Source of the DNA: Deinococcales bacterium
GTDB lineage: Bacteria > Deinococcota > Deinococci > Deinococcales > JAAFIG01
Assembly (NCBI GenBank): GCA_013298185.1
Contig: JAAFJQ010000014.1
Coordinates: forward strand, 1 to 33,789
Reading direction: 5' to 3'
Length of the DNA stretch: 33,789 nucleotides
How positions within the stretch are numbered: the first letter of the stretch is position 1; each line of letters opens with the position of its first letter. Below the pieces are notes generated by a model. That model was given only the letters and a program-made list of their open reading frames with translations. It had not been told where the DNA came from and did not search any database. Both the position numbers and the translations under genes were made by a program. This document shows, piece by piece, positions 22,754 to 30,219 of this stretch.

Positions 22754-22884
22754 CTGCCACACCAAGCAGAGTATGGGCAGAGTATGGGCTGTCACACCAA
22801 GCCTGCTATGGGCTGTCACACCAAGCCTGCTATGGGCTGTCACACCAAGCCTGCTATGGGCTGTCACACCAAGCCTGCCATGGG
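22754..22884. repeat. 24-bp tandem repeat, about 5.5 copies, between the sensor and DsbA-like genes
   Basis: Copies at 22789-22812, 22813-22836 and 22837-22860 look identical (CTGTCACACCAAGCCTGC plus TATGGG). The copy at 22861-22884 has one change, the copy at 22754-22777 is diverged, and an 11-base partial copy follows it. The 313-bp gap between the two divergent genes contains little else. The repeat's TATGGGCT resembles the real -10 region TAGGCT downstream. Confidence 0.9.
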
Positions 22885-22918
22885 CTAAGCGACACCTTCT
22901 CAAACCAACAAAGTTTGC

Positions 22919-22924
22919 TAGGCT
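22919..22924 (+). promoter_or_regulatory. -10 box of leaderless promoter for the DsbA-like gene
   Basis: TAGGCT lies 7 bases before the ATG at 22932. Confidence 0.5.
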
Positions 22925-22931
22925 ATGACCC

Positions 22932-26351: not shown

Positions 26352-26390
26352 AAGAATCACCATTTGGACTTAGCCCAAATGGTGATTCTT
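26352..26390 (-). terminator. Perfect 16-bp hairpin ending the rhodopsin operon
   Basis: Arms 26352-26367 and 26375-26390 are exact inverse copies around a 7-base loop. The hairpin lies 13 bases past the stop of the 71-residue gene and just upstream of the next promoter. The minus-strand sequence after the stem (ATCTCAGG) has no T-run, so it may instead protect the mRNA end. Confidence 0.65.
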
Positions 26391-26403: not shown

Positions 26404-26619
26404 TTAATTCTTGCCGATGTTGCTGACTGTGTACACGTATGCCACGATCATCAGCATCAACGCCAAGTACACCAAACGCAAACCAATCAGGTTCTGACCA
26501 CCAAAACCAATGAAGTTATCAAATGCCAAGGTTGCCAGCACCAAAGCGATCAGGAGCACCCCGACGGGCTGATTGTGCTTCTCAACGTAGCGTTGCAGCA
26601 ATTTGACTCGAGGTTTCAT
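26404..26619 (-). CDS. 71-residue two-helix membrane protein coupled to the rhodopsin gene
   Basis: I do not recognise this protein. A basic, probably cytoplasmic N-terminus (MKPRVKLLQRYVEKHNQ) precedes two hydrophobic helices (about 18-35 and 46-64) joined by a short loop with FDNFIGFGGQN; the C-terminus is SNIGKN. Its ATG shares bases with the rhodopsin stop (TGATG), so translation is almost certainly coupled. A strong hairpin follows, so the two genes seem to be the whole operon. A helper, stabilising subunit or pigment-holding partner of the rhodopsin is a fair guess but unproven. Base use and one CTCGAG site match the rest of the genome. Confidence 0.8.
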   Translation of the reverse strand: MKPRVKLLQRYVEKHNQPVGVLLIALVLATLAFDNFIGFGGQNLIGLRLVYLALMLMIVAYVYTVSNIGKN

Positions 26620-27467
26620 CAGTCACCTGCCATGGCAAGGTTGCCTGGTTTGGCTTCGTTATCGGCTTTGGTTTTCTCCAAAGCAATAAAGTAAATCAGT
26701 GTGCCGAAACCAGCCTTGGCGATCATATCGGCTAAGCTATAACCCACTTGCAAAGCCACCACACCATCTGCCGAGAAGCTACCGAACACCAGTGGCATCA
26801 GGTAAGCAATGGGGTAAAAACCCCATGAGGCAAACAGCAACAAACGCAGGTTCTTCATCAAGAGTTGCACTCGAGGTGGCTGACGATCAAGTGACTTGCC
26901 AAGTTCGACAAACAAAGTGTAGATGATGTACACAAACGGAATGGTGCTGAGTGTACCCCACAACAAACGTGTGCCAGTATCCAAGGAGATTTCGCCAGGG
27001 TAGCCCAGAACAATCATGGCAAGCGCAGCAACAACCAAGCGCCCAATCATGCCCGAAGCCACGTTGCTTGCCAATGCCAAAACCGCTACGGCTTCAACCA
27101 GCAACAACGGCACGGTCAAAACCCAGTCGGCATAGCGGTACGCATCGTTGAACGGCAACCCAGAGGCTTTGTAAACCCCGTCTACAAAAGTATAGGCTTC
27201 GCTCCATGAACCAGAGATACGAAAGTAGTGATAACACGCCACTGCCACCACCAACGCCGAGACAAGCATCGCAGGTTGATACTTCACCCCAAGGTTTTGC
27301 TTGCCCAGCACAAAGAAAATAAACGATGCCCCCATCGTCGCAATGGTGATCGAGAACAACTGATACACCAAACCAAACTGTCCTGAACTGAGTTCAGTCG
27401 GCGCAGCCAAAGCTGCACTTCCAAAAAGAACTGCTCCGAGTAGTGCTGGCACGAACAACTTTTTCAT
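26619..27467 (-). CDS. Xanthorhodopsin-type light-driven proton pump
   Basis: A seven-helix retinal protein of 282 residues that should pump protons outward in light. A signal-peptide-like N-terminus (1-22) precedes the helices. Helix C reads RYADWVLTVPLLLVE: counterion Asp114, Thr118 and proton donor Glu125 (the DTE set of outward pumps); Leu122 at the proteorhodopsin 105 position suggests green absorption. His80 matches the xanthorhodopsin counterion partner, and Lys251 in DMIAKAGFG binds retinal. Gly171 in LLWGTLSTIPF matches xanthorhodopsin Gly156, which leaves room for a carotenoid antenna. Alignment to Salinibacter xanthorhodopsin is close throughout. No retinal or carotenoid synthesis gene lies in the window. 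Confidence 0.96.
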   Translation of the reverse strand: MKKLFVPALLGAVLFGSAALAAPTELSSGQFGLVYQLFSITIATMGASFIFFVLGKQNLGVKYQPAMLVSALVVAVACYHYFRISGSWSEAYTFVDGVYKASGLPFNDAYRYADWVLTVPLLLVEAVAVLALASNVASGMIGRLVVAALAMIVLGYPGEISLDTGTRLLWGTLSTIPFVYIIYTLFVELGKSLDRQPPRVQLLMKNLRLLLFASWGFYPIAYLMPLVFGSFSADGVVALQVGYSLADMIAKAGFGTLIYFIALEKTKADNEAKPGNLAMAGD

Positions 27468-27717: not shown

Positions 27718-28305
27718 GTGAATGAAGTACCCAGTTTGAATTTAGTCAAAATTTTACGCGGTGGCGGCGATGTCTCCGACCAAGGCAAAACCAACTTGCT
27801 CGAGTACAGCGTCGAAACCACCCACGGCTTAGAAGTTGTCACCTTGCCACTGCACGGCACGGCCCAATGGCGAGCCATTGCCTCGCACATCGGCGAACAG
27901 GAATTCTGGTTGGCTGGGACAATCGAAGCCACCCTGAACTTAGAATGCGGACGTTGCCTTGACCCAGTCACGCACAGCATGGAAGCTCGGCTCGAGAGTT
28001 TGCTGCGCTTTGACCCGAACGCCAAAACCCCAAAGCGCACCCTAACCGACGATGACGAAGAAGTGATTCTCTTTGGCGAGCCAAACGTCAACTTAACCGC
28101 GCTGTTTGCAGAAGCCATCAGCCTCGAGATTCCCGCCATGGTCAAATGCCGCGCTAATTGTAAAGGACTGTGTGCCAGTTGCGGCATGAACCTGAACAAC
28201 ACCTCAGCTTGCAAAGAAGCTCGAGCCGACTGCCCGAGTTTTGGCGTGCAAGAGACAAAGAAAGAAAATCCGTTTGCTGTATTAAAAGATTTGTTTAAGG
28301 ATTAA
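27718..28305 (+). CDS. YceD/DUF177 family protein
   Basis: A 195-residue protein of the YceD family, linked to 23S rRNA accumulation and usually encoded just before the ribosomal protein L32 gene rpmF. It shows ATLNLECGRCLDPVTHSMEA, the acidic DDDEEVILFG loop, ISLEIPAMVKC and the Cys cluster CRANCKGLCASCGMNLN, probably binding zinc. Unlike the usual arrangement no rpmF follows; the next gene is convergent arsC, and the two stop codons overlap. The start is GTG with a -10 box 6 bases upstream. Confidence 0.87.
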   Translation: MNEVPSLNLVKILRGGGDVSDQGKTNLLEYSVETTHGLEVVTLPLHGTAQWRAIASHIGEQEFWLAGTIEATLNLECGRCLDPVTHSMEARLESLLRFDPNAKTPKRTLTDDDEEVILFGEPNVNLTALFAEAISLEIPAMVKCRANCKGLCASCGMNLNNTSACKEARADCPSFGVQETKKENPFAVLKDLFKD

Positions 28306-28730
28306 GTTTTGTAACCTGCTTCTTTCCACTCGAGGATACGCTTGGAAATGGCATCGCGGATTTCACGGAATTTCTCGAGTTTGGCTTGATCAGTGCCTTC
28401 AAAGGCAGCGGGGTCTTCAAATGCCCATGCCAGACGGTACGATACCCCCGGAAAAATCGGGCAGTTGGCTTCGGCTCTCGAGCAAACCGTGATGATGTAA
28501 TGAAAATGCTTGTAACCAAGCATCGGAATCACACCTTTGGCGTGCATTCCTTCGGTGCCAATACCGATTTCCTCGAGAACCCGTACAGTGTAAGGATTTA
28601 AGACACCCGGTTCGAGTCCAGCGCTGGTGACTTCAAATTCGTCTGGTGCATGGTGGCGCAGCAGCGCATCTGCCATTTGGCTACGAGCTGTGTTGCCGGT
28701 GCATAAAAACAAAACCGATGGTTGTTTCAT
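28302..28730 (-). CDS. arsC: Arsenate reductase, low-molecular-weight phosphatase type (second copy)
   Basis: A 142-residue enzyme of the LMW tyrosine phosphatase fold that reduces arsenate to arsenite. The P-loop LFLCTGNTARSQMADALLR has nucleophile Cys10 (CX5R). ITVCSRAEANCPIFPG carries the two further Cys of the thioredoxin-linked relay, and FEDPAAFEG holds the general-acid Asp. It differs clearly from the other ArsC in the operon (MHAKGV loop, longer acidic C-terminus), so it is not a recent duplicate. Its ATG overlaps the aquaporin stop (ATGA). Confidence 0.88.
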   Translation of the reverse strand: MKQPSVLFLCTGNTARSQMADALLRHHAPDEFEVTSAGLEPGVLNPYTVRVLEEIGIGTEGMHAKGVIPMLGYKHFHYIITVCSRAEANCPIFPGVSYRLAWAFEDPAAFEGTDQAKLEKFREIRDAISKRILEWKEAGYKT

Positions 28731-29407
28731 TTCATCACTTCCTTTTTGGTCTCGAGGTTGATTGCTTCAAGCCACTGCGCCGTGAATGCTGCCAGAATTG
28801 CTCCACAAGTTGGCGCAACCCACATGATCCAGTGGTCTGCCCATTGCCCAAACACGGCAGGTCCAAAGGCTCGAGCAGGGTTGAGCGCCACGCCCGTTAG
28901 TGGTCCGGCGGCGGCAATGCACATCATCACGGTTGCACCAATCAGCGCTCCTGCGGCTGGATGTGCATGTAGCACCGCCACACGAAAAATCACCAGTGCC
29001 AAGAAAAAAGTCAGCACCAGTTCGATTAAAAATCCTGCAAGTACCGAGACATTGGGGGCAAGCAAGGTTGCGCCGTATTTGACTTGCTCGAGCGCCGCGC
29101 CATGGGTCAGGCTGAGCAGTCCAACTGCCGCAAGGCTACCAGCCAATTGAGCTGGAATATAAAAAAGTGCATCTTGCCAAGCAAAGCGTCTTATTACACT
29201 CAGGGCAATGGTGATGGCAGGGTTAAAATGTGCGCCTGAAACATTGCCGAGGGCGTAAATCATGACCGTCACTGCAAAGCCATGCGCCATGGCAATAGCA
29301 ATTAAACCGCCGTTCAGTAAACCTGTTTGGGTTAGAGCAATTGCACCAACGCCGCAGTAGACAATGGCAAACGTGCCAATCAGTTCTGCTATCGCTTTTT
29401 GTAGCAC
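28727..29407 (-). CDS. aqpS: Aquaglyceroporin in arsenic operon, AqpS-like
   Basis: A 226-residue MIP-family channel with six helices and two half-helices. Both NPA boxes are intact: GAHFNPAITIALS and GVALNPARAFGPAVFG. In an operon with arsR and arsC such channels let arsenite made by ArsC flow out, as described for AqpS of Sinorhizobium meliloti. GTG start at 29407, directly after the arsC stop, with GGAGG 6 bases upstream inside the end of arsC. No ArsB or Acr3 pump gene is in the operon, which strengthens the AqpS reading. Water or glycerol transport cannot be excluded. Confidence 0.88.
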   Translation of the reverse strand: MLQKAIAELIGTFAIVYCGVGAIALTQTGLLNGGLIAIAMAHGFAVTVMIYALGNVSGAHFNPAITIALSVIRRFAWQDALFYIPAQLAGSLAAVGLLSLTHGAALEQVKYGATLLAPNVSVLAGFLIELVLTFFLALVIFRVAVLHAHPAAGALIGATVMMCIAAAGPLTGVALNPARAFGPAVFGQWADHWIMWVAPTCGAILAAFTAQWLEAINLETKKEVMK

Positions 29408-29863
29408 TTAAACCTCCACTCGAGGCGCGTCTTGGTACGTCGCAGGAACAGGCTGCTGGTTTTTCAGAGCGAATATAAACTGCTCGAGTTGCCCCCCAAT
29501 TTGGTCACGCACCACCCGCCAAGTCTCGAGTGAACCGCCACTTGGGTCTTGGAATGGATAGTGCAACCGCGTGGTTTGAACTGGATACACAGGGCAGCGC
29601 TCGGCAGCGCTGTCGCAAACCGTGATCACGTAATCAAAATTCCATGGGTCGGGTAAATCAAACAGCACTTTGCTCGAGTGGGTGCTTAAGTCAATGCCAA
29701 CTTCTTGCATCACAGCCATGGCATCGGGTTTGACGAAAGTGCTTTCTGTGCCAGCACTGAAAATCTCGCAAGGCAGACCAAGTTGATTGGCATAGAATCT
29801 TGCCCAACCTTCAGCCATTTGGCTTCGGGCGCTGTTGTGGGTACAAAGGATTAAAATTCGCAT
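29408..29863 (-). CDS. arsC: Arsenate reductase, thioredoxin-linked (first copy)
   Basis: A 151-residue LMW phosphatase-type arsenate reductase. ILILCTHNSARSQMAEGWAR gives the P-loop with nucleophile Cys. ITVCDSAAERCPVYP gives the Cys pair seven residues apart that matches Cys82/Cys89 of staphylococcal ArsC, and PFQDPSGG gives the general-acid Asp. The frame begins at TTG, but ATG at 29863 is the next codon and the better start. It follows arsR after 10 bases and abuts the aquaporin gene. Confidence 0.92.
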   Translation of the reverse strand: MRILILCTHNSARSQMAEGWARFYANQLGLPCEIFSAGTESTFVKPDAMAVMQEVGIDLSTHSSKVLFDLPDPWNFDYVITVCDSAAERCPVYPVQTTRLHYPFQDPSGGSLETWRVVRDQIGGQLEQFIFALKNQQPVPATYQDAPRVEV

Positions 29864-29873
29864 CAAAAACAGA

Positions 29874-30212
29874 TTAACATATCAATTCTATTTGATTTGT
29901 CAGCTTGATGTCAGGGCGTGGTTGCAGCAGTGTCTCGAGCAGCCGTCCACCCAACACATACAAGGCATCTTTCTCGAGGCGATAAAACACATTTTTGCCT
30001 CGCTGCTGACTGGAAACCAAACCAACATCGCGCAGCAACGCCAAATGATACGAAACTTTACTTTGTGTCAGACCCAAATACGCCTCGAGTTCACAGACAC
30101 AGCATTCACGTTGCGCCAGAATTGAAACCATTTCAAAGCGCAAATCATGACCAAGGGCTTTAATCTGCTCAAGCGGAGAAGCTGTGGCTGGCTTAGATGG
30201 TGTTAAAAGCAT
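29874..30212 (-). CDS. arsR: ArsR-family arsenite-responsive repressor
   Basis: A 112-residue winged-helix repressor. ALGHDLRFEMVSIL begins the DNA-binding domain, ECCVCELEAYLGLTQSKVSYHLALLRDVGLV is helices 3 to 5, and RGKNVFYRL is the wing. The CxC in ECCVCEL corresponds to the ELCVCDL arsenite site in helix 3 of plasmid R773 ArsR, so it should release DNA on binding As(III). It heads the operon and probably represses its own promoter. ATG at 30212 has a TATACT box 7 bases upstream, so the ArsR operator likely overlaps it. Confidence 0.93.
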   Translation of the reverse strand: MLLTPSKPATASPLEQIKALGHDLRFEMVSILAQRECCVCELEAYLGLTQSKVSYHLALLRDVGLVSSQQRGKNVFYRLEKDALYVLGGRLLETLLQPRPDIKLTNQIELIC

Positions 30213-30219
30213 CAAAAAA

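Follow-up and report, generated by a model that had tools for sequence, protein, structure and literature searches.

A small gene adjoining a xanthorhodopsin gene in one rhodopsin clade of Deinococcales encodes a predicted two-helix membrane protein and a plausible partner of the pump

Introduction

To our knowledge, proton-pumping rhodopsins are regarded as one-gene machines, and dedicated partners are known mainly for sensory types. In haloarchaea, HtrI and HtrII contact sensory rhodopsins through two transmembrane helices, and their genes adjoin the rhodopsin gene. Tiny membrane proteins such as CydX, KdpF and AcrZ serve large membrane proteins; we know of no small subunit of this kind for a rhodopsin pump. 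The closest precedent for the locus described below is the soluble partner gene of the cryorhodopsins, which adjoins or overlaps the rhodopsin gene in all genomes and whose product has been interpreted as a transducer (PMC12227055). The gene for Gloeobacter rhodopsin is reported to be a solitary gene in its genome (PMC4210194). The open-access literature that we searched contained no membrane partner of a proton-pumping rhodopsin, which is no proof of novelty.

Here, we analyzed a stretch of 33,789 nucleotides from a Deinococcales bacterium (hereafter the window; positions 1-33789 of contig JAAFJQ010000014.1, assembly GCA_013298185.1, genome label G000), in which a xanthorhodopsin gene is followed by a gene for a 71-aa protein. 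Similar to the Htr transducers, this protein has two predicted transmembrane helices and a gene next to that of a rhodopsin. However, Htr proteins extend into the cytoplasm with large HAMP and signalling domains, whereas the protein studied here comprises only 68-75 aa among its copies, contains no HAMP or methyl-accepting domain (no Pfam match) and accompanies a rhodopsin with pump residues. It resembles CydX, KdpF and AcrZ in being a tiny membrane protein, and no sequence relation to them was found. As with the cryorhodopsin partners, a small, hard-to-annotate coding sequence lies beside or overlaps the rhodopsin gene throughout one rhodopsin clade; in contrast, the cryorhodopsin partners are soluble in water and are predicted to attach, on the cytoplasmic side, to the C-terminus of the rhodopsin, whereas each copy here has two hydrophobic segments, is predicted to form a membrane hairpin and is paired with a xanthorhodopsin of the outward-pump type (PMC12227055).

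The xanthorhodopsin gene and the overlapping small gene

The rhodopsin gene (26619..27467, minus strand) encodes 282 aa with a signal-peptide-like N-terminus, and its product matched the microbial rhodopsin family PF01036 (E=4.1e-38). The best phmmer matches were psXR, Gloeobacter rhodopsin, xanthorhodopsin and Kin4B8 (E 1e-76 to 1e-86), clear relatives whose deposited chains are named as rhodopsin alone. The Asp/Thr/Glu pump triad of helix C (D114/T118/E125) and the retinal-binding Lys251 are invariant in all five family members. Judged from these residues and matches, the protein is a xanthorhodopsin of the predicted outward-pump type, as the initial annotation had it. G171 and Y222, also invariant in the five proteins, correspond in an alignment to 3ddl to Gly156 and Tyr207 of xanthorhodopsin, which serve as criteria for a carotenoid site (PMC12308411). 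A carotenoid antenna on this rhodopsin is therefore possible.

The small gene (26404..26619, minus strand) begins within the rhodopsin stop codon: base 26619 belongs to both the TGA and the ATG (TGATG), so the overlap read in the initial annotation stands. A ribosome-binding site of its own, AGGTGA (26623..26628, minus strand), lies 3 nt 5′ of the ATG within the final rhodopsin codons (GCA GGT GAC TGA) and agrees with the standard Shine-Dalgarno sequence TAAGGAGGTGAT over 6 nt. Corresponding matches of 7 nt and 6 nt were found in the relatives G001 and G003, respectively; in G016, GGAGGT precedes a start located 17 nt downstream of the rhodopsin stop, and no match of at least 4 nt was found before the small gene of G002. 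One copy begins with TTG, and alternative TTG starts in G001 and G016 would overlap the rhodopsin stop. That the rhodopsin ends in a conserved Ala-Gly-Asp may in part be a consequence of the overlapping ribosome-binding site. Translation of the two genes is likely coupled, from which equal protein amounts do not follow. The equal supply that had been assumed initially is no necessary outcome, given that ribosomes can bind the small gene at a site of its own and that spacing and start codon differ among genomes.

A hairpin 3′ of the small gene (26352..26390, minus strand) closes the two-gene unit. It had been described as a stem of 16 bp; the stem is in fact slightly longer, with 18 bp and a 3-nt loop (-26.7 kcal/mol, z=-6.5). 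No clean U-tract follows it in the window, and we therefore call it terminator-like. Hairpins occur at the same place after the small gene in all four relatives (z -5.4 to -6.6).

Conservation and predicted structure of the small protein

Homologues of the small protein were found in G001, G002, G003 and G016, each starting 1-17 nt after the rhodopsin stop and sharing 37-53% identity with the window copy. Twelve residues are invariant across the five copies (G20, L23, L26, V27, L28, A32, D34, L44, L47, R48, Y51 and Y61), and they fall within or beside the two helices. Among codon positions, the third is the most variable and the second the most conserved, and pN (0.31-0.46) is below pS (0.61-0.82, near saturation) in every pair; together, these patterns indicate purifying selection on the small gene. 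The small protein has changed at about two to three times the rate of the rhodopsin (dN of 0.40 versus 0.13 in the closest pair). Its shortness, the TTG start of one copy and the distant start of another are features that a chance open frame might also display, but the conserved protein sequence, the coding-type substitutions and the retained two-helix pattern refute that reading, to which we give practically no credence. The small ORF is a genuine gene, and it is conserved.

The window copy contains two 19-residue windows with a mean hydropathy of 2.3, and all five copies have two such hydrophobic segments (1.7-2.3). An AF2 model of the small protein forms a helical hairpin (residues 3-37 and 45-70) with a mean pLDDT of 65 and a pTM of 0.37, a low confidence at which the model supports secondary structure only. 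Both lines of evidence agree with the two-helix membrane protein proposed initially. In all or nearly all copies, positive charges are more numerous at the ends than in the loop, which suggests that both ends lie inside.

The small protein had also been described as belonging to no known family, and we found no match above the cut-off in Pfam, NCBIfam, PHROGs or PDB sequences. Pfam matches to SPC25, holin and MerT (E 0.02-0.2) were each confined to one or two members, were inconsistent and were set aside as chance.

Distribution and linkage of the gene pair

A profile of the small gene was searched against 111 Deinococcota genomes. Convincing matches occurred in five genomes only, once each, and these are the same five that carry this rhodopsin clade (support 1.000). 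A further match in G045 (E=0.004) covers only 21 positions inside a 238-aa frame and was rejected as chance. The rhodopsin family is present in 29 of the Deinococcota genomes, and no similar small membrane gene was found close behind the other rhodopsins (27 of 30 loci parsed). Conservation in other Deinococcota, which the initial annotation had proposed to check, thus holds for one family of uncultured Deinococcales and fails for Thermaceae and Trueperaceae, whose rhodopsins have no small partner gene; absence of the pair from relatives had been named as evidence against a partner role, and the pair is present in five loci. Outside the clade, the closest xanthorhodopsins come from MAGs of other phyla (Bacteriovoracaceae and Oligoflexales); they also have no partner gene, and the small-gene profile found no homologue in nine genomes with such xanthorhodopsins, in a search that had no positive control. 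Likewise, no confirmed relative emerged from a scan of genome contigs with the small protein, and nothing was found in viral contigs with a rhodopsin alignment as the query or in plasmids with the small protein.

The gene pair occurs in all four genomes that we covered from the window's family and on one contig of a fifth MAG, G016. When all surrounding ORFs were compared, the five loci had five different gene neighbourhoods, and the pair was the only syntenic unit common to all; beyond it, the sole ORF match was a weak one (22%) between two loci. Linkage of the small gene is shown to be exclusive to one rhodopsin clade, and a single gain at the root of the family, followed by retention in all known members, is its simplest history. 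G016 is classed in a family other than the window's, and its pair sits on a 9.5-kb contig (C175, locus L057). For two other genes on this contig, the best matches come from members of the window's family (76% in G001 and 58% in G003), and the genus to which G016 itself belongs yields only a distant match or none. Judging by these matches, we rejected horizontal transfer into G016, since a misbinned contig of the window's family is more likely.

One Bacteriovoracaceae MAG (locus L060) carries a 69-aa two-helix ORF 88 nt after the stop of its xanthorhodopsin gene. We rejected this candidate because the small-gene profile does not recognize it and the two genes are separated by an inverted repeat; the ORF is unrelated to the small protein, and its downstream position is possibly a coincidence.

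Chromophore supply

Phytoene synthase is encoded in all five genomes (G000, G001, G002, G003 and G016). Neither Blh (PF15461) nor an RPE65-type carotenoid oxygenase (PF03055) was found above the cut-off in any of them, and chromophore supply in these bacteria is therefore possibly unusual. Rhodopsin-bearing bacteria that lack blh are known, including members of Deinococcus-Thermus (PMC7734400).

Possible roles of the small protein

Overall, the locus holds a confirmed, narrowly distributed and conserved gene pair, and a partner role for the small protein is plausible on the sequence evidence. We put at about even the chance that the product of the small gene is a dedicated, obligate partner of the xanthorhodopsin in the membrane, probably packing directly on the pump. 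Pigment binding by the small protein, among the roles suggested initially, would be conjecture, though the pump keeps Gly171 and Tyr222 of the carotenoid site. In our proposed mechanism, the small protein would be synthesized in coupling with the pump and would form a helical hairpin with a probably cytoplasmic N-terminus, two transmembrane helices and a short outer turn. The conserved Asp34 and Arg48 would be placed near the outer helix ends, where, as a guess, they may pair between themselves or else with the rhodopsin. The hairpin would most likely pack on the lipid-facing surface of the pump or on the edge of its oligomer, and would stabilize this assembly or else modulate the pump or the carotenoid site. 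Direct binding, the binding site and the effect on the pump are what we infer here; a direct partner is the best reading because the linkage is exclusive and persistent, synthesis is coupled and both proteins would share the same membrane. Against it stand the faster evolution of the small protein and the weak AF2 model, and the clade-specific rhodopsin changes (e.g., Q36, I40, V76, S232 and F260) mark no single surface. Since the solved xanthorhodopsin relatives were deposited as rhodopsin alone, the partner would not be needed for pumping in general.

Other roles are each unlikely to a different degree. Small two-helix proteins are common and diverse, and the small protein could be a passenger with its own task that shares the transcript by chance and is retained because both products are needed under the same (light) conditions. 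Its rapid evolution and its restriction to one bacterial family are compatible with such an independent task, which we nonetheless find unlikely, as the linkage is kept in five of five loci with five different neighbourhoods and the gene was never found apart from the rhodopsin. Somewhat more doubtful is an assembly factor that acts in opsin insertion, folding, oligomerization or the loading of retinal or carotenoid and is absent from the finished pump. A chaperone role would fit coupled synthesis right after the opsin, and chromophore supply, with no Blh or RPE65-type oxygenase above the cut-off in the five genomes, is possibly unusual; however, the xanthorhodopsins of Thermaceae, Trueperaceae and Oligoflexales manage without the small protein, and its 68-75 aa hold no soluble or catalytic region.

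We consider it improbable that the rhodopsin doubles as a light sensor whose state the hairpin relays onward, similar to a reduced Htr-type transducer. Contact through two helices is likewise the mode of Htr transducers, and the adjacent or overlapping small partner gene of cryorhodopsins has been read as a transducer (PMC12227055). However, all that the small protein has beyond its helices is a charged N-terminus and a tail, both short, and no cytoplasmic signalling domain; the rhodopsin retains the pump residues D114, T118 and E125, and no neighbour gene common to the five loci could serve as the next signalling step. The lack of a catalytic or signalling domain is the reason for which we prefer a structural subunit to a chaperone, a passenger or a signalling element.

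A more specific form of this dedicated membrane partner is tentative, and we hold it to be somewhat less probable than not: the hairpin would be a dedicated transmembrane subunit, the first for a proton-pumping rhodopsin, in stoichiometric complex with a xanthorhodopsin that binds carotenoid and whose oligomer, antenna or chromophore loading the hairpin would control in bacteria without known retinal-forming enzymes. If true, a membrane partner would alter views of how rhodopsin pumps are assembled or tuned, and it would provide a natural tool to stabilize or regulate them.

Other features of the window

On the minus strand, positions 28302-30215 appear to hold an arsenate-resistance cluster, read from the ORF translations, with an ArsR-like regulator, two low-molecular-weight-phosphatase/ArsC-like proteins and an aquaporin-like channel. 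A short tandem repeat (22770-22930), AVTPSLLW-like when translated, lies between two divergent genes. Additionally, the palindrome CTCGAG is highly iterated: base composition would predict about 8 copies in the window, which has 231, and the whole genome contains 26,619 (about 6 per kb). It is alike in kind to cyanobacterial HIP1 but differs in sequence. Its density is similar in the window's family and genus g11 (genomes listed: G000, G001, G002, G003, G012 and G016), about 3.6 per kb in G008 and low in G004 (683 copies in 2.3 Mb).
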